Positions 12,142 to 29,935 of a stretch of DNA of 64,000 nucleotides are shown piece by piece. The position numbers and the translations under genes are program-made. This stretch comes from Embleya scabrispora DSM 41855 (GTDB lineage Bacteria > Actinomycetota > Actinomycetes > Streptomycetales > Streptomycetaceae): NCBI RefSeq assembly GCF_000372745.1, contig NZ_KB889662.1:62001-126000 (forward strand), given 5' to 3'. Positions within the stretch are counted from its first letter, which is position 1; each line of letters begins with the position of its first letter. Under the pieces are notes generated by a model. It did no database searches. It saw nothing but the letters and a program-made list of their open reading frames with translations, and was not told where the DNA came from.

Positions 12142-14481
12142 TCACCGCAACGGCAGATCCACCCGGGTCACCGCGAGGGTGCGTCGCGCCAACTCCACCA
12201 GCGCGCACTGGTCTTGACCCGGCAGGCCGGTCCTGACCCGGGTCGCCGCCATCGACGGCCAACCCGCCTCCGCGCCGTGCAGGATCCCGGCGATCGAGCC
12301 CGTCATCGGCGCGGAGGTGTGGATGTCCCACCCTCCCCGCACGGTCAAGCCGATCTGCCGACACGGGTCGCCGTCACCCCACAGCAGCCCCGCCGCGACC
12401 AGGCAGGCGATACCCGGCGCGTCCCGCCGGGAACCGGTCCCGTACCGCTGGTGCACCTCGGCAGCCGCCCGCTCCCAGCTGTGACCACGGGTGTAGGCGA
12501 CCAGGACGCCCTGAATCGCCCGCGACAACCGCGACTCGACCGGCACATGCCGCAACGAGACCCCGACCGCCTGCGCGGCATCCCGCGCCGTGAACGCCGC
12601 CGCCGCAAGCGCGGCGCTCCACATCGCCGCGTACAGCCCCTCCCCCACATGCGACACGACCGCGTCCTTGCGAGCCAACCGCGCCGCCCGTCGGGGATCG
12701 CCGGGTGCCACGTACCCGTACAGGTCCGCACGTGCCATCGCCTCGTCGGTCCCGCCGTGCGCGGTCTCCTCGGACGCCGTCGCCGGCGGCAGCGCACCGC
12801 TCAGCAGGGCCTGATACGCGGCCTGCTCCGCCGCGCCCTGACGCAGGAACGGCAGGGTCAGCAGCCACAACGCCCCGACCTGCGCGCTGGTGAAGCCCGG
12901 TCCGTACAACTCCAACACCCGAAGGCTCAACACCGAACGATCCATCGCATCGCTGCGATCCTCCGCGCGGGCGGCATCCGGCACCCCTGATCCGTCCGGA
13001 ATGCGGGCCGCCTCGTAGGCGCCGAGACAACGGCCGATCCAGCCCCCGTGGATCCGATCCGGCAACGCCACGCCGGGCGGCGGCGGATCGATGGCACCGG
13101 CCGGCGGAAGCCCCTGATCCACAAGCCGATCGACGGCGTCGCCACGATCGTCGCGGCTCGGATCACCCCGACCCGGACCGCTCTGCCCCGGATCGTTTCG
13201 GATCAGACCATTCGCCGACAAAGCTTGTCGCCCCGGACCGCCTCGGCCCGGACCATCTCGGCCCGAATCGACCTGCCCGGCCCGCCCAGGCCACCCCCGC
13301 CCGAGGCGTTCACGCTCCAGGCGTTCTCGCTCCAAGCGCTCGCGCCGCTGACGGTCTCGGTCCAAGTGGCTCCGCCCCCACATGACTTGCCCAAGAGAAT
13401 CTTCATCAAGACGCCCGCCATCAAGTCGGTCACGACCCGGACGGCCGCGATCCAGGTACGCCCTGCCCAGAAGGTCCCGCTCCAGACCATCTCGCCCGTG
13501 GCCGTCCTGCGCGCGCTCGCCTCGGGCCCGACCGGTCCGGGCGCCGGCACCGCCTATTCGATCGTCACCCGCCACGCGCTCGCGACCCGCGTCATCCGCG
13601 AGTGAATCGGCTTGCTTCGGACGGTCGGACTCCACGCCATCCGGGCGCCCATCGAACGGAGTTGAGCCATCATCGCCGGAGCCGATGTCCGCGCCGCCCG
13701 AATGCTCCTCCGCCAGACGATCGCGCCGTCCATCGCCTCGGTCCGCGACACCCGAAGCCGGAACCTCCTCGCCGGCCACATCAGCTCTTGTCAGCGAGCT
13801 TTGCGCACGACTTTCCTCGGTCGGACGTTCACCTTCGCTCGGGTGAGCCGAGCGCCCACGCACACGCCCGCCCTCATCGCCGTCGCCATCGCCCCGCCTG
13901 CGGTCCGGCCGCATTCGGCGCCCCGAATCAAAGTTGTCCGATTCCCGACCGTCCCGACCCGCCTCCGCCACGCGCGTCACCGCTCCTTCGCCGACCGACT
14001 CCGCCCCGAAACCGACCTCCGACCCACCGCCCACGCCCGACCCGAATCCGGCGCCGACCAGGCCGCCCGCGTCCGGCCCGCGCGGGCCGACCGGCCCCTC
14101 CGCCCCAGCCGGGTCATCCGACTCATCCGGCCCGCCCGGCCCGCCAACCACACCCCCGCCTTCACCCTCCGGCCGCGCCGCCGCGCCACGCTCCGCAGCC
14201 CGCGCCGCCGCGCCACCCCACCTACCGCCCCGCCGAATACGAGCCCGCTCCCGACCCCCATCACGGGCCCCATCGCGCGCCTGCCCATCCACTTCCACCT
14301 GCGCCTGCCCTTCGACGCGCCCGTCCTGCGCCTTCTGCGAATCGTGCGGCACCTGGTCCTCCCCGGCCGGGTGGGCAGGCCGGCGCCGACCGGCGGGCGG
14401 CGCTGCCCGGGACGTTGGCGGTTTCGACACCCGGAACCCGATCGCGACTCCGGGTGACGAAGGCCGCTCGTAGCGCATCAT
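12142..14481 (-). CDS. ADP-ribosylglycohydrolase-like protein with long low-complexity N-terminus
   Basis: About residues 473-779 align with the ADP-ribosylglycohydrolase (DraG/ADPRH) fold: DRIHGGWIGRCLG, LRVLELYGPGFTSAQVGALW, ADLYGYVAPGDPRRAARLA, RYGTGSRRDAPGIACLVAAG and RGGWDIHTSAPMTGSIAGIL. Known members carry a DDDT-type motif before the first of these helices and GxDTD(S/C)NGAT at the end; here the equivalents read DAMDRS (about 510) and GWDIHTSAP (about 717-725), so the metal-binding aspartates appear lost. Residues 1-470 are Arg/Gly/Asp-rich, with decapeptide-like units such as LERERLERERLGRG. The start (14481 or 14478) is weakly supported and the N-terminal part is less certain than the domain. 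Confidence 0.65.
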   Translation of the reverse strand: MMRYERPSSPGVAIGFRVSKPPTSRAAPPAGRRRPAHPAGEDQVPHDSQKAQDGRVEGQAQVEVDGQARDGARDGGRERARIRRGGRWGGAAARAAERGAAARPEGEGGGVVGGPGGPDESDDPAGAEGPVGPRGPDAGGLVGAGFGSGVGGGSEVGFGAESVGEGAVTRVAEAGRDGRESDNFDSGRRMRPDRRRGDGDGDEGGRVRGRSAHPSEGERPTEESRAQSSLTRADVAGEEVPASGVADRGDGRRDRLAEEHSGGADIGSGDDGSTPFDGRPDGVESDRPKQADSLADDAGRERVAGDDRIGGAGARTGRARGERAQDGHGRDGLERDLLGRAYLDRGRPGRDRLDGGRLDEDSLGQVMWGRSHLDRDRQRRERLERERLERERLGRGWPGRAGQVDSGRDGPGRGGPGRQALSANGLIRNDPGQSGPGRGDPSRDDRGDAVDRLVDQGLPPAGAIDPPPPGVALPDRIHGGWIGRCLGAYEAARIPDGSGVPDAARAEDRSDAMDRSVLSLRVLELYGPGFTSAQVGALWLLTLPFLRQGAAEQAAYQALLSGALPPATASEETAHGGTDEAMARADLYGYVAPGDPRRAARLARKDAVVSHVGEGLYAAMWSAALAAAAFTARDAAQAVGVSLRHVPVESRLSRAIQGVLVAYTRGHSWERAAAEVHQRYGTGSRRDAPGIACLVAAGLLWGDGDPCRQIGLTVRGGWDIHTSAPMTGSIAGILHGAEAGWPSMAATRVRTGLPGQDQCALVELARRTLAVTRVDLPLR

Positions 14482-14685
14482 GCTCAGGCCGATCCGGGAA
14501 AGGCCAGACGCCCGAGACGGTTGATTCGACCCAAATGTGACGCCCTATCACATGCCCTGCGCAGGCTACGGAACTGCCCCGCTCCAGGCCATTGGCAAGC
14601 CTTGACGAAGTTCAGACGCAACCCGCTGAAATTCGTCACGACCCAGGGGGTTCGCCGGCGCCGCAAATCGCGTACCTTATCGGCC

Positions 14686-15201
14686 ATGACCTCGGCTCGC
14701 GCCTATGACGGCGGCATCTACTCGCCGTATTCGGAGACCCCGATCTACGACCGGCTCGTAGCCGAACGGGGTCGACCGGAGATCGGCCCCTTCAACCTCC
14801 CCGTGCCGGACTTCGCCATGCACCCGCTCTTCGGCGAACGACCGGCGCTCCCGGCCCTTCCGGCCCTGCCGTCCTCGTACTCGTCGCCCGCCCCGGCATA
14901 CGGGTCCGCGTACGGCTCGTCCGCTCCGGGCTACGGCTACAACGCTCCCGCCCCGATGCAGTCGCTGCCCGCCCCGCTGCCGGTTCCGGCGCAGTACGGC
15001 GGCGGCCAGTACAACAACGCGCCCATGTCCGGGTATGCGTCGATGGCCCCGGCCGCACCGCAGGCACCCCAACAGGCCGTACACCAGGCGCCGCAGCCCG
15101 GCGCCGGGCAGTACGCCGCGCAGTACGTTCAGCCGCCGCAGGTACCGACGCCCCGTGTGCCGAACATGGGCGAGCCGGGCCAGTTCCCGCCTCGCTACTG
15201 A
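14686..15201 (+). CDS. Proline/tyrosine-rich actinomycete protein (DUF6643-like)
   Basis: A 171-residue protein whose N-terminus, GGIYSPYSETPIYDRLVAER, matches what I remember of a conserved Streptomyces family of unknown function (I believe DUF6643; not checked). The rest is Pro/Ala/Gln/Tyr-rich and probably disordered, with many APAYGSAYG-like units. There is no signal peptide or membrane helix. ATG at 14686 has no clear ribosome site. TTGACG at 14602-14607 upstream could be a -35 element. Monocistronic; the function is unknown. Confidence 0.75.
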   Translation: MTSARAYDGGIYSPYSETPIYDRLVAERGRPEIGPFNLPVPDFAMHPLFGERPALPALPALPSSYSSPAPAYGSAYGSSAPGYGYNAPAPMQSLPAPLPVPAQYGGGQYNNAPMSGYASMAPAAPQAPQQAVHQAPQPGAGQYAAQYVQPPQVPTPRVPNMGEPGQFPPRY

Positions 15202-17697: not shown

Positions 17698-18288
17698 ATG
17701 ACGACAACCAACGAGACGCCTCGGGTCCCGGACGCCGCATGGCTGGAAGCCCGGTTCGGCAGCGGTTCGCTCTGGCGGCCGAACGAAGCCGACCTTCCCG
17801 AGGAACTGACCGACCGCGAGACTCGCGACTTCCTGACCACGACCGGCTTTCCGGCCGTCGCGATCGACCTCGTCGAGTTCGACTCCACGCACCTACGGGA
17901 CGCCGACGAGCCGTACCTGTTCGACGCCGACGAACTGTACGGGCGCCGCTACCCCGACGACGACTCACCGCCCGAGAACTTCTGCTTCACGATAGGCATC
18001 CACTTCGACCAACAGTTGATGCTCGACACCGACCTCGGCGAGATCAACCACTACGATCCCTCCGGCTGGGACCACGGCGACGGCGACAAAGGCGTTGCCA
18101 CCTCCTCGCTGCCGACACTGGCCGTACTCCTGGGCCTGGTCGTCGAACGACGTGACGCCCTCGAAACCGACAACGACGGAATCCGCCACGCGGCAATCGT
18201 CGAACTCCGCCACCACATGGCCGCAATCGAACCCGAGGTGGAGAACTCCCCCTTCTGGGACAGCGTGTTCGACCACCTTTCGGCCTGA
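17698..18288 (+). CDS. SUKH-4-like immunity-type protein
   Basis: A 196-residue acidic protein resembling the SUKH-4 immunity family: LPEELTDRETRDFLTTTGFP at the N-terminus, then FCFTIGIHFDQQLMLDTDLG, SSLPTLAVLLGLVVERR and a helical C-terminus. Such proteins neutralise contact-dependent or polymorphic nuclease toxins, but many actinomycete copies are orphans. No toxin gene is adjacent: the neighbours are MsiK (92 bp upstream) and the convergent RecD-like gene. Function as an immunity protein is therefore only inferred from the family. Confidence 0.6.
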   Translation: MTTTNETPRVPDAAWLEARFGSGSLWRPNEADLPEELTDRETRDFLTTTGFPAVAIDLVEFDSTHLRDADEPYLFDADELYGRRYPDDDSPPENFCFTIGIHFDQQLMLDTDLGEINHYDPSGWDHGDGDKGVATSSLPTLAVLLGLVVERRDALETDNDGIRHAAIVELRHHMAAIEPEVENSPFWDSVFDHLSA

Positions 18289-22449: not shown

Positions 22450-22714
22450 GGCACCGGAGACTAGTCGTTCCCTCCCCCGTGCCGCCGTTGGCGGGGCCGT
22501 TCGGGGGTATGCCGCCCGAGCAGGTTACCGGCGGGTAGGTCACACGATATGGTCGCCCGAGGCGACCTGCTCGGTTCGCCCGGATCGCCCGCCCACCCGG
22601 GCATCACGAACGACACCGAACAGCACGACGATCCACCCGACGAACACGGCGATGCCACCACGCGCAGCACCAGAACAGCACCGCATCACCACGCACGGCC
22701 ACGCCGCACATCAG

Positions 22715-22738
22715 TCGAACCGCCTCGAATCGGTTCGA
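22715..22738. promoter_or_regulatory. Inverted repeat before the LLM oxidoreductase
   Basis: TCGAACCG (22715-22722) and CGGTTCGA (22731-22738) form perfect 8-bp arms around an 8-base spacer, ending 27 bp before the LLM start codon at 22766. It is a plausible operator or leader hairpin. The remainder of the 316-bp divergent region 22450-22765 shows no other clear signal. Confidence 0.45.
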
Positions 22739-22765
22739 ACCACGCCCAACAGGGGGTCCGCGAAT

Positions 22766-23815
22766 ATGCGACTCGGTATCAACCTCGGATACTTCGGTGC
22801 CGGCAACGACGCCGACAACCTGGCGGTGGCCCAGGAGGCCGACCGTCTCGGTTATGCGGTCTGCTGGGCCGCGGAGGCCTACGGATCGGACGCGGCCACG
22901 GTGCTGTCCTGGGTCGCCGCGCAGACCACGCGGATCGACGTCGGCTCGGCGATCTTCCAGATCCCGGCCCGGACGCCCACGATGACCGCGATGACCGCCG
23001 CGACGCTGGACGTGCTCTCCGGTGGTCGCTTCCGACTCGGGCTGGGCGTGTCCGGGCCGCAGGTGTCCGAGGGCTGGTACGGGGTCAAGTTCGACAAGCC
23101 GCTCGCGCGCACCCGCGAGTACGTCGAGGTGATCCGCAAGGCGATGCGCCGCGAGCGGGTCGACCACCAGGGTGCCAACTGGACGCTGCCGCTGCCCGGC
23201 GGCCCGGGCAAGCCGCTCAAGCTCACCGTGCACCCGGTGCGCGAGCACATCCCGCTGTACATCGCGGCGGTCGGCCCGAAGAACCTCGAACTGACCGGCG
23301 AGATCGCCGACGGCTGGCTCGGCGTCTTCTACGCGCCGGAGCACGCCGAGGAATCGCTCGTGCACATCCGGGCGGGCCGGGAGAAGGCCGGTCCGGCGAT
23401 GACCGACTTCGACATCGTGCCCACCGTCCCGCTCGTGGTCGGCGACGACCCTCGGCAGGCGGCCGACCAGGTACGCGGCTACGCCGCGTTGTACGTGGGC
23501 GGGATGGGCAGCCGGGACCAGAACTTCTACAACCGGCTCGCGGTCCGAATGGGCTACGAGGCCGAAGCCAAGGAGATCCAGGACAAGTTCCTGGCCAAGG
23601 ACTACGCGGGCGCCGGCGCGGCCGTCCCGTACGACTTCATCGACAAGACCAGTCTGCTCGGCGGCAAGGAGCGGATCGCCGAACGCATGCAGGCGTACGC
23701 GGACACGGGTGTGACAACGCTGACGATCGCGCCGAACGGCACCACCCTGGACGAACGGGTCGCCGCGCTCCGGATCGCCGCCGAAGCCCTGGAACTGTCC
23801 GGTACGGGTTCCTGA
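22766..23815 (+). CDS. LLM-class F420-dependent oxidoreductase
   Basis: A 349-residue luciferase-like TIM-barrel enzyme starting MRLGINLGYFGAGNDADNLA, with ICSG-like segment TTRIDVGSAIFQIPARTPTM, LSGGRFRLGLGVSGPQV and PLYIAAVGPKNLELTGEIAD. These are hallmarks of the actinobacterial F420-dependent LLM group with a TIGR03559-like layout. Cofactor F420 is inferred from the family, not proven. ATG at 22766 follows AGGGGG with 9-base spacing. Monocistronic; substrate unknown. Confidence 0.88.
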   Translation: MRLGINLGYFGAGNDADNLAVAQEADRLGYAVCWAAEAYGSDAATVLSWVAAQTTRIDVGSAIFQIPARTPTMTAMTAATLDVLSGGRFRLGLGVSGPQVSEGWYGVKFDKPLARTREYVEVIRKAMRRERVDHQGANWTLPLPGGPGKPLKLTVHPVREHIPLYIAAVGPKNLELTGEIADGWLGVFYAPEHAEESLVHIRAGREKAGPAMTDFDIVPTVPLVVGDDPRQAADQVRGYAALYVGGMGSRDQNFYNRLAVRMGYEAEAKEIQDKFLAKDYAGAGAAVPYDFIDKTSLLGGKERIAERMQAYADTGVTTLTIAPNGTTLDERVAALRIAAEALELSGTGS

Positions 23816-23828
23816 CAGATCCGGCGGC

Positions 23829-23850
23829 CTGGCCCGGCCCGCCGGGCCGG
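23829..23850. terminator. Hairpin between convergent genes
   Basis: GGCCCGG (23831-23837) and CCGGGCC (23842-23848), extended by a GT and a CG pair, form a compact GC stem with a 4-base loop just after the LLM stop codon. Likely terminator. Confidence 0.55.
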
Positions 23851-23925
23851 CCGTCGCGGCCGAGCCGAAGCCGTCGAACGGCGGCGGGTCCACGCTTCGG
23901 GCCCGCCGGCCGACACACCGCCCGG

Positions 23926-24555
23926 TCAGCGCGGCCCCGGCACCCGGGCCGCGATCACCTCGGCGAAATCGAGGAGGCGGCGGATCTGCCCCGGTCCGCC
24001 GTCCTCCAGAGACTTGCTGAACCGGTACGCCTCCTGCCGGAAGCGGCCGGTGGACGCACCGTCCTCACCGCGCACGGTGGCCACCTCCTGGAGGGTCGGC
24101 GTGGCCAGGAACACGAACGCGCCGCGCAGTTGGCGTCGTCCGTCGGGGTCGGTGCCGACCAGCGTCCGTATCCCGACGTGCGACACCGAACCCAGCGGAA
24201 TCACCTGCACGGAGGAATCCAACACGGTGCCGCCGGGGGCGGACGGGTCGGTCATGTCCTCGCTGTGCCACAGCACGAGCCGCCGGTCGTCGCAGACCGC
24301 GGCCTCCTGCCACACCGAGGTGCCGTTCGCGTTGATGTCCACGACCCGTTCGAGGGTGAATCCGCGCACCGGGCGCCGGCCGAGCACCGAGCCCAACGCC
24401 TCCAGCGCCACGTCCGGATGCAGCAGGTAGGACCGAACCGCGTCCTCCAGCTGGGTGTGCGAGGACCAGTCGGCCCCGGCGGCTCCGGCCCCCGGAACCT
24501 GGGCCGGGCGCGTACCCGATGTGCGCTGCCTGCCCGACTTGCCGAACATCCCCAC
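23926..24555 (-). CDS. Unrecognised conserved-looking protein
   Basis: A 209-residue soluble protein that I do not recognise. A basic, Gly/Ala-rich N-terminus is followed by a domain with HTQLEDAVRSYLLHPDVALE, GFTLERVVDINANGTSVWQE, RRLVLWHSEDMTD and RQEAYRFSKSLEDGGPGQIR. The alternation of short beta-type segments and a C-terminal helix suggests one compact domain. GTG at 24555 has GGAAG upstream; ATG at 24549 is the alternative start. It is co-oriented with and downstream of corA, separated by 216 bp. Confidence 0.7.
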   Translation of the reverse strand: MGMFGKSGRQRTSGTRPAQVPGAGAAGADWSSHTQLEDAVRSYLLHPDVALEALGSVLGRRPVRGFTLERVVDINANGTSVWQEAAVCDDRRLVLWHSEDMTDPSAPGGTVLDSSVQVIPLGSVSHVGIRTLVGTDPDGRRQLRGAFVFLATPTLQEVATVRGEDGASTGRFRQEAYRFSKSLEDGGPGQIRRLLDFAEVIAARVPGPR

Positions 24556-24771
24556 CTGCTTCCGCCGCGTCTGTACAAGCAGAAGCCTACGAGAGTCCGG
24601 CGTGGGCGGCGCCAGGGTCCACCGCTTGATCGATCACGGAACGAAATCAGGCCGCGGCGGGGGAGTCCAGTGCGTCCCCGCCACGGCCGGTATGCGGTTC
24701 AACGACCGTGCGCGGCAAAGGACACGAAGAGAAACAGCGGAAAGCGACAAAGGCCACGTCCCGCCCCGGCG

Positions 24772-25746
24772 CTACAACCATCCGCTCCTGCGGAACATGC
24801 GATGCAGCACGATGCACGAGCACACCATCAGGGCGACCGCTCCCGGATAGCCCCATACCGTTTTGAGTTCGGGCATGTGGTCGAAATTCATCCCGTACAC
24901 GCCGGCGATCATCGTCGGCACCGCGAAGATCGCCGCCCACGCCGAAATCTTGCGCATGTCCTCGTTCTGCCGGACGCCCACCTGCGCCAGGTGCGCGCCG
25001 AGTACGTCGGACAACAGGCGATCGAAGGACTCGATCTGTTCGGTGACCCTGGTCACATGGTCGGCCACGTCGCGGAAGAAGGGCCGGGTCTCCGCAGGTA
25101 CGAAGGCGACGTCCGCCGTGGCCAGCTTGCGTATCGGCTCGATCAGCGGCAGCGCGGCGCGGCGGCACTCCAGGACCTCACGCTTGAGCAGGTAGATGCG
25201 CTCGGCGTCGTTCTCGCGGCTGGGCGAGAAGACCCGCGCCTCCAATTCCTCGAGGTCGGTCTCCAACTCGCCCGCGATCGCGAGGTAGGCGTCCACGACG
25301 GCGTCGGCCACCGCGTACATCACCGCGCCCGGGCCGTGCTTGAGCAATTCGGGCTGCTTCTCCACCCGACGCCGAACCGATTTCAGCTCCGCGCCCGGCC
25401 CGTGACGGACCGTCACCACGAACGAGTCGCCGACGAACATCATCAGCTCGCCGGTCTCCACGGAGGAGGTCTCGTCGTAGTAGTGCAGCGTCTTGAGCAC
25501 GAGAAAGATGGAATCGTCGTACGTCTCCAGCTTGGGTCGCTGATGCGCGTGCAGCGCGTCCTCGACGGCGAGCGGGTGCAGCCCGAACTCGCTGGTGACC
25601 AGATCGAACTCGCTCGGCGTCGGCTCGTGCAGCCCGATCCACAGGAACGAGTCGCCGACCCGCCGGGCCTGGTCCAACGCATCCGAGAAGTCGGCGGGGC
25701 CCTGGGTCCGGCGGCCGTTGGCATAAATGGCGCAGTCGACGATCAC
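24772..25746 (-). CDS. corA: CorA-family magnesium/cobalt transporter
   Basis: A 324-residue CorA protein. The N-terminal cytoplasmic alpha/beta domain (FLWIGLHEPTPSEFDLVTSE, HPLAVEDALHAHQRPKLETY) is followed by the long stalk helix and two C-terminal membrane helices with the selectivity motif YGMNF (GMN at 285-287) and a basic tail, MFRRSGWL. It forms a pentameric divalent-cation channel in the plasma membrane. GTG at 25746 is the start, since the upstream in-frame region is unlike the family. Divergent from the phosphomutase gene. Specificity for Mg2+ versus Co2+/Ni2+ cannot be read from sequence. Confidence 0.93.
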   Translation of the reverse strand: MIVDCAIYANGRRTQGPADFSDALDQARRVGDSFLWIGLHEPTPSEFDLVTSEFGLHPLAVEDALHAHQRPKLETYDDSIFLVLKTLHYYDETSSVETGELMMFVGDSFVVTVRHGPGAELKSVRRRVEKQPELLKHGPGAVMYAVADAVVDAYLAIAGELETDLEELEARVFSPSRENDAERIYLLKREVLECRRAALPLIEPIRKLATADVAFVPAETRPFFRDVADHVTRVTEQIESFDRLLSDVLGAHLAQVGVRQNEDMRKISAWAAIFAVPTMIAGVYGMNFDHMPELKTVWGYPGAVALMVCSCIVLHRMFRRSGWL

Positions 25747-25972
25747 CGGGCCATTTTGCCGGCTGCCCGACGGCGAGGCTGCCGGGCTCGAAAGGCGTAC
25801 ACCGGTGGGCCCGCTCCGAGGACGCTCTCGGAGGACGCTCGGAGGCATCCGCCCCGGGCGGCGGCACGCACCGACCGGGGGCGCGAGCGCGGCGCGCCGA
25901 GCCCGCCCCGTCCCGGGGTGCCACTTCCGACCGGCTCCGGTCCGTCCCGGGCCGGCGCATAGGCTTACGTCC

Positions 25973-28708: not shown

Positions 28709-29935
28709 ATGTATGCCTGGCCTGCACCCGAGCTCCCCGTTCTCCCTGGTCAGGGTGCGTCCCTGCGCCTGCACGACAGCTCTGTGCGCGATCTTGTGAC
28801 GATCACCCCGGGACCGGTCGCGCGGTTGTACGTGTGCGGCATCACTCCGTACGACGCGACCCACATGGGGCATGCCGCCACATATGTCGCGTTCGATCTG
28901 CTTCAGCGGGTCTGGCGGGACGCCGGCCACGCCGTGGACTACGTGCAGAACGTCACCGACGTCGACGACCCGCTCCTGGAGCGGGCCGAGCGCGACGGCG
29001 TGGACTGGGTCGAGCTGGCGCAGCGCGAGACCGCGCTGTTCCGTGAGGACATGGCCTCGCTGCGGGTGCTCCCGCCGACCAACTACATCGGCGTGGTCGA
29101 GGCGATCCCGCTGATCGTGCCGCTGATCGAGGACCTGCTCGCCAAGGACGCCGCCTACTCGGTGGACGGCGACATCTATTTCTCGATCGCGTCGGACGAG
29201 AGCTTCGGCGGCGTCTCCGGCTACACCGCCGCCCGGATGCTGGAGATCTTCGGCGAGCGCGGCGGCGACCCGGAGCGGGCGGGCAAGAAGGACCCGCTCG
29301 ACCCACTGCTGTGGCGCGCGGCGCGGCCCGGCGAGCCGTCCTGGGACGCGTCCTTCGGCGCGGGCCGCCCCGGCTGGCACATCGAGTGTGTGGCGATCGC
29401 GCTCAAGTACCTGGGCATGGGCTTCGACGTGCAGGGCGGCGGCAGCGACCTGGTCTTCCCGCACCACGAGATGGGCGCGTCGCACGCGCACGTGGTCACC
29501 GGCGAGGTGCCGTACGCGAAGGCATACGCGCACGCCGGCATGGTCGCGCTGGACGGCGAGAAGATGTCCAAGTCGCGGGGCAACCTGGTGTTCGTGTCCA
29601 AGCTGCGCCGCGAAGGCGTGGACCCGATGGCGATTCGCCTGGTGTTGCTGGCCCACCACTACCGCAGCGACTGGGAGTGGACCGACGAGGTCCTGGCGGA
29701 CGCCCAGACGCGGCTCGCCACCTGGCGCGCGGCGGTCGGGCGCCCGGACGGGCCGGACACCACCGAATTGCTCGCCACGATCCGCGAACGCATGTCCGAC
29801 GACCTGGACGCGCCCGGCGCACTGGCCGCGATGGACGCGTGGGCGGCCCGGCAACTCGCCGACGGCGGCGACGACATGTCCGCCCCGGGCGTGGCCTCAC
29901 GCGCCCTGGACGCGATCCTCGGCGTGGCCCTCTGA
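28709..29935 (+). CDS. mshC: Cysteine:GlcN-Ins ligase (mycothiol synthesis)
   Basis: A 408-residue MshC, the ATP-dependent ligase joining cysteine to 1-D-myo-inosityl-2-amino-2-deoxy-glucopyranoside in mycothiol synthesis. It is class I synthetase-like and related to CysS: zinc Cys43 in [19 protein letters not shown]-equivalent THMGH (51-55), zinc-site region [19 protein letters not shown], and KMSKS at 285-289 followed by [14 protein letters not shown]. The length is typical. There is no ribosome site before the ATG at 28709, so the message may be leaderless. A 28-bp hairpin follows. Confidence 0.96.

Follow-up and report, generated by a model that had tools for sequence, protein, structure and literature searches.

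The open reading frame at 12142-14481 on the reverse strand of the window, by which we mean the whole 64,000-nucleotide stretch of Embleya scabrispora DSM 41855 DNA that was analysed, very probably encodes a catalytically dead ADP-ribosylglycohydrolase (ARH) fold, as judged by sequence comparison with its relatives. The full explanation that we put forward, and consider probable, is that this pseudo-ARH became fixed in an ancestor shared by Embleya and Yinghuangia, which are related genera of soil actinomycetes, and was then kept for a non-catalytic role as a binding module. Catalytic residues are lost in all orthologues and the gene is maintained, as is required of a pseudoenzyme. Because the losses are found in every copy and selection yet maintains the gene, the product is probably a binding protein and not an enzyme. 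An earlier note on this DNA had suggested a pseudoenzyme, and the suggestion is supported: 7/7 orthologues share losses in the metal sites and the Glu flap that selection has maintained.

Predicted fold of the ARH domain

The open reading frame is present with 779 codons, and its C-terminal part is the domain considered here.

12142..13134, reverse strand: codes for the ARH-fold domain, 330 residues plus stop (PF03747, GC3 0.861, orthologues, AlphaFold and PDB matches)

Residues 509-739 matched the Pfam family PF03747 (ADP_ribosyl_GH) with 78.6 bits (E 8e-22), above the curated cut-off of 26.2, and the match entered the profile at position 48; an NCBIfam search of the same frame gave no match. 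AlphaFold, supplied with a 21-row alignment, returned a model of the domain with a pLDDT of 87 and a pTM of 0.90, with low confidence at the stretch where the flap is missing. The top Foldseek match of this model was ARH3 (6g1q_B, E 1.3e-6, TM 0.69). Superposition by VIA-align gave a Z of 29.8 against ARH3 (rmsd 2.8, 287 aligned), which displayed the alpha-helical ARH fold of the PF03747 family, and a Z of 25.3 against DraG. A phmmer search of the PDB sequences with the domain alone found no match, whereas a profile search did reach DraG. The C-terminal 330 residues are, on the evidence of the Pfam match and the model, a real ARH fold. The alignment with actinomycete ADP-ribosylglycohydrolases that had been noticed earlier is borne out by PF03747, the AlphaFold model and the superpositions on ARH3 and DraG.

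The source genome (11.39 Mb) holds seven PF03747 genes, of which this one is the second weakest, and the other six retain TDDT- and DxDS/T-type motifs. A weak-scoring ARH gene about 13.6 kb past the end of the window (L007, G000:C101:139570-140286) was also observed, in which TDDT and GDVDT are retained.

Residues lost and kept at the active site

Losses and retentions were counted by aligning the seven orthologues with 20 canonical relatives, out of 21, the two-residue row L016 having been dropped. Columns identical in at least 19 of these 20 relatives were taken as near-invariant, which resulted in 148 columns. All seven orthologues kept 69 of them and all seven lost 34, including 11 that are gaps in every orthologue. 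Many of the lost columns fall in active-site motifs and some lie outside them. Three features of the domain are concerned.

12937..12957, reverse strand: first metal motif, RSDAMDR for canonical RDDDVDY; Asp77 equivalent kept, Asp78 equivalent lost (alignment, correspondence with DraG TDDT)
12307..12333, reverse strand: second metal motif, GWDIHTSAP for canonical GLDTDSNGA; Asp314 equivalent kept, Asp316 equivalent lost (alignment, correspondence with DraG GGDADT)
12955..13023, reverse strand: shortened stretch, lacking about 40-50 residues among which canonical relatives have the GKPVE Glu flap (alignment, low pLDDT)

D62 is equated with ARH3 Asp77 and D270 with Asp314, and the two lost positions with Asp78 and Asp316, since the DraG profile alignment pairs the two motifs with TDDT and GGDADT. 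Both D62 and D270 are invariant in the seven orthologues, which also keep R60, D65, S161 and H162. DDDxDY has lost its first D, its third D and its Y throughout, and the Asp78 equivalent is A or T. At the second motif, the D-S-x-G of GxDTDSNG is lost in every orthologue, and the Asp316 equivalent is H, P, S or R, variable even inside the clade. Further losses shared by all seven are the WI of the WIGA loop, the N of SHxGN and the W of WIH. Much of a segment that reads GKPVE...WT..I..YL..PL.DY in canonical relatives is gone as well, a loss of about 40-50 residues that include the Glu flap. The earlier note had read DAMDRS and GWDIHTSAP in place of the canonical sites, and the motifs listed above confirm both readings. 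It had further taken the aspartates to be gone at both sites, which is true of the Asp78 and Asp316 equivalents, lost 7/7, but not of the Asp77 and Asp314 equivalents, kept 7/7; the third loss, the Glu-flap segment absent from all seven, it had missed. The intact binuclear metal ligands of ARH1, ARH3 and DraG (T/S-D-D plus D-x-D-T/S) were found in none of the seven orthologues. The Glu flap of these enzymes is likewise missing, GKPVE being absent 7/7 by alignment, with one row setting an E in the gapped stretch. As metal ligands and flap are both wanting, the protein is classed as an ARH-fold homologue and not as an ADP-ribosylglycohydrolase.

In ARH3, Asp77 and Asp314 contact both ADP-ribose and Mg while Asp78 and Asp316 contact metal only, and the mutants D77A, D78A, D314A and D316A are each described as impaired in PAR hydrolysis and without serine-MAR activity (PMC8141533). 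By extension from these mutants, loss of the Glu-flap segment together with the two metal-only aspartates would leave no binuclear metal centre, and loss of that centre would in turn abolish ADP-ribose hydrolysis. Glu41 of the Glu flap is crucial for the activity of ARH3, whereas the flap glutamate of RruDraG is of small catalytic importance and its mutation is tolerated (PMC7050489); for that reason loss of the flap is not decisive when taken singly. Retention of the Asp77 and Asp314 equivalents, moreover, makes a reduced or single-metal site conceivable. An active hydrolase with such a rebuilt or single-metal site and an unusual substrate would account for the invariance of D62, D65, D270 and the SH motif in all seven orthologues, and the tolerance of RruDraG to flap mutation would agree with it. 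We nonetheless consider it very unlikely, as the position of Asp316, the bridging carboxylate in ARHs according to PMC7050489, is not conserved inside the clade, and as D78A and D316A each impaired ARH3 (PMC8141533).

From the pattern of kept Asp77 and Asp314 and lost Asp78 and Asp316 it follows that metal-only ligands were shed and sugar-contacting ones retained. The aspartates kept 7/7 are exactly the equivalents of the ADP-ribose-touching pair, and those lost 7/7 are the metal-only ones as assigned in PMC8141533. This would suit a metal-free reader of ADP-ribose or of an ADP-ribosylated target, in which the two kept aspartates grip the terminal ribose without hydrolysis, as would retention of S161 and H162 of the SH motif in every orthologue. 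Other pocket columns are however lost in all seven (the W-I of WIGA, the N of SHxGN, the W of WIH and most of the flap segment), ARH3 without metal binds ADP-ribose weakly (KD 80.65 uM vs 1.42 uM with Mg, from the same paper), and the kept aspartates could be structural. A reader, which the earlier note had offered as a possibility beside a regulator, thus gains some ground from the kept pair and loses some through the other replaced pocket positions. A metal-free reader of this kind is in our view unlikely. It is quite unlikely, judging by residue patterns, that a prokaryotic metal-independent ADP-ribose reader arose here from a hydrolase, turning an eraser into a reader by shedding the metal-only aspartates and the flap and keeping the ribose-touching pair. 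The dead ARH fold that we favour is predicted to serve in binding, either of a partner protein or of a residual ligand of nucleotide type that would sit in the old cleft.

Orthologues, selection and the surrounding locus

The seven orthologues are found in four Embleya genomes (G000-G003) and three Yinghuangia genomes (G004, G020, G030), which are 4/4 Embleya genomes of the collection and 3/3 Yinghuangia genomes within a set of 61 relatives. A search of the 61 relatives with the ARH domain at E 1e-5 gave matches in 14 genomes, and a search of 394 family genomes at 1e-50 gave matches in 118. Among the matches listed for the 394 genomes, an identity of at least 55% was reached only in the four Embleya and three Yinghuangia genomes; all other family matches were at most 48% identical, and canonical where read. 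Scanning of genome contigs with the domain returned 20 loci, of which 4 belong to the clade with the losses, 8 to Nocardia and 8 to distant groups. A 41-row tree grouped the seven orthologues in a single clade (100/100), and the stem leading to it measured 1.07 changes per column. This result carries long-branch warnings; the trimming of some canonical rows was uneven, and row L056 retained extra upstream residues. A Nocardia MAG relative (L045:7941-8855) showed a separate deletion of the flap-to-DDD stretch with DADSN kept, which may be an independent loss or an assembly fault.

Nei-Gojobori dN/dS was 0.19-0.27 in the six Embleya pairs, 0.19-0.31 in the three Yinghuangia pairs and 0.18-0.41 in six pairs of four canonical ARH genes, all of these ratios being approximate because dS is high in many pairs. 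Third codon positions were the most divergent in 21/21 pairs counted, and the reading frame of the ARH domain is intact in 7/7 genomes. The alpha-helical ARH core is under purifying selection, and neutral decay of the gene is not supported. The search for orthologues sharing the replaced residues, which the earlier note had set as a check, returned 7/7 with the same losses and none with canonical motifs. Decay in a single strain is ruled out by these shared losses and by the within-genus dN/dS of about 0.19-0.31. The loss of motifs and of a whole segment, together with a repeat-rich upstream tract whose frame is broken in two of the sister genomes, might still be read as a decaying pseudogene or a sequencing artefact; with intact frames 7/7, identical losses across two genera and a dN/dS of about 0.2-0.3, this reading is scarcely credible. 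A role as partner of a close active paralogue was also considered and is weak, given that a canonical subfamily member was found by the 61-relative search in only 1/7 carriers (G004).

In the window and at the six orthologous loci, thus 7/7, the gene lies next to a DUF6643 gene.

14677..15201, forward strand: DUF6643 gene (PF20348, 43.6 bits), next to the ARH-fold gene and divergent from it in 7/7 genomes by synteny
14353..14676, no strand: divergent intergenic region between the two genes, the DUF6643-proximal part conserved in 7/7 genomes

Co-regulation of the two divergently transcribed genes is possible in view of their adjacency, which may on the other hand have been inherited with a single ancestral locus and have no functional meaning. 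A tblastn search of 24 DUF6643 loci with the ARH domain gave strong matches only in four (L079, L081, L082 and L083); these loci are short, the ARH gene of L077, L078 and L080 lying beyond the locus end, and absences hold within that reach. The Embleya flanks contain MOSC, ABC transporter, SUKH-4, MMPL and two-component system genes, and the Y. soli flank contains MshC, TetR, DegT, GNAT and glycosyltransferase genes. A gene at 28709-29935 in the window, matched by Pfam tRNA-synt_1e, is presumably of the MshC type, and its presence both here and in the Y. soli flank makes the region look like one rearranged locus. At 22549-25962 on the forward strand, an ORF of 1137 codons without a Pfam match has stretches 51-68% identical in three Yinghuangia loci.

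A SUKH-4 immunity-type gene was observed at 17698-18288 on the forward strand (PF14435, 33.2 bits), with no toxin among the ORFs scanned. Its position, 2.5 kb beyond DUF6643, and the existence of ARH-fold immunity proteins (6dre, Z 27.6; PMC3482391) would be in keeping with an ARH-fold immunity protein that occludes an ADP-ribosyltransferase (ART) toxin. No ART domain was however found among the neighbouring ORFs scanned, a subset of those present, PADLOC gave no match at the locus, and the stable position beside DUF6643 in both genera is unlike that of a shuffled immunity gene. We regard this role as highly improbable.

The remainder of the frame, upstream of the domain, is of a different character.

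13135..14352, reverse strand: variable Arg/Gly/Asp-rich extension in the frame of the domain, composed of degenerate 15-bp repeats, putative translation (periodicity, codon use)
14352-14350, reverse strand: candidate GTG start with a GGGGAGG ribosome-binding-like site, common to SID3343 (sequence comparison)

GC at the three codon positions was 0.865/0.626/0.697 in the tract vs 0.752/0.585/0.861 in the ARH domain, and the mean GC3 of 14 neighbouring genes was 0.862. The mean ln RSCU was 0.099 for the tract vs 0.331 for the domain, all 14 neighbours having at least 0.243. A 15-bp periodicity was detected in the tract of the window (z 7.0 overall) and in the corresponding tracts of E. hyalina (z 3.8) and G002 (z 2.3). 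In these two genomes stops interrupt the frame of the tract and an ATG is found near the domain. Between the domain and DUF6643 the window has about 1.5 kb, SID3343 about 0.7 kb, E. hyalina 2.9 kb, G002 4.3 kb and Yinghuangia 0.3-0.4 kb. A tblastn search of the orthologous loci with the N-terminus of about 450 residues gave no match. Our conclusion is that this tract came about by expansion of repeats, to an extent that varies between strains, in the interval from an old start site to the ARH domain; its Arg/Gly/Asp-rich frame would contribute no conserved part to the protein. A conserved functional domain in the N-terminal 450 or so residues is ruled out by the missing orthologous match, the stops and the non-coding-like codon use, and the low-complexity N-terminus that the earlier note had counted as an added protein feature is unsupported by conservation or codon use. 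A 406-codon frame stayed open by chance in 18/3000 order-1 and 3/3000 order-2 simulated frames, which is improbable; this and the GTG with its GGGGAGG site common to SID3343 speak against a pure artefact, and the tract may be translated in the source strain.

Within the tract, the degenerate repeats of 13135-13700 (reverse strand) stay in phase at 15 bases (z 8.2) and show no period of 3 (z -1.6). The corresponding interval is also repeat-bearing in L029 and L030, the latter with tandem arrays of 148 and 207 bp. Antisense frames over the tract at 13048-13605 and 13702-14457 (forward strand) have a gene-like GC (0.67/0.59/0.88 and 0.74/0.65/0.87, respectively) and no homologue except for a 43-residue match in L031.

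Comparison with known systems

The best-described dead ARH folds are those of vertebrates (ARH2/ADPRHL1), and no bacterial ARH pseudoenzyme was found in searches of an open-access library. A lineage-fixed prokaryotic dead ARH with active-looking close relatives and a clean residue pattern is a tractable system in which to study what purpose an ARH cleft serves once catalysis is gone and whether erasers can turn into readers.

Canonical ADP-ribosylglycohydrolases of Streptomycetaceae and Nocardia carry GKPVE, RDDDVDY and GLDTDSNGATAG motifs. The clade resembles them in sequence, the best Streptomycetaceae matches being up to 48% and those of Nocardia 39-43% identical, with 69/148 near-invariant columns kept, and differs from them in the missing flap segment and in the loss of the Asp78 and Asp316 equivalents in 7/7. 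ARH3 and DraG are alike in overall fold at about 15% identity, but their metal centre and flap are not preserved here. An Imm-ARG/Tri1-like immunity protein would need a linked ADP-ribosyltransferase toxin gene, of which the subset of neighbouring ORFs scanned holds none. ARH-fold subunits are also seen in PDB complexes of the FtsHi motor (8xks_Q, 8xqw_G) and of mitoribosome assembly (9hny_FP, 6sga_FP), which by entry title are non-ADP-ribosyl machines; these are organellar, unlike the present clade.

The closest likeness in kind is to vertebrate ARH2/ADPRHL1, which is a lineage-conserved ARH fold as well and has likewise lost metal ligands but retained the first of the two DD aspartates; by analogy, hydrolase activity would be expected of neither. 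According to PMC7390403, vertebrate Adprhl1 retains only the Asp55 equivalent and its old cleft is yet essential, whereas the Embleya/Yinghuangia clade keeps the equivalents of both Asp55/77 and Asp302/314. The clade differs further from ARH2/ADPRHL1 in being prokaryotic, in also being without the flap segment, and in having presumably arisen inside an actinomycete subfamily, as indicated by its actinomycete close relatives in a tree that was built without a vertebrate sequence.
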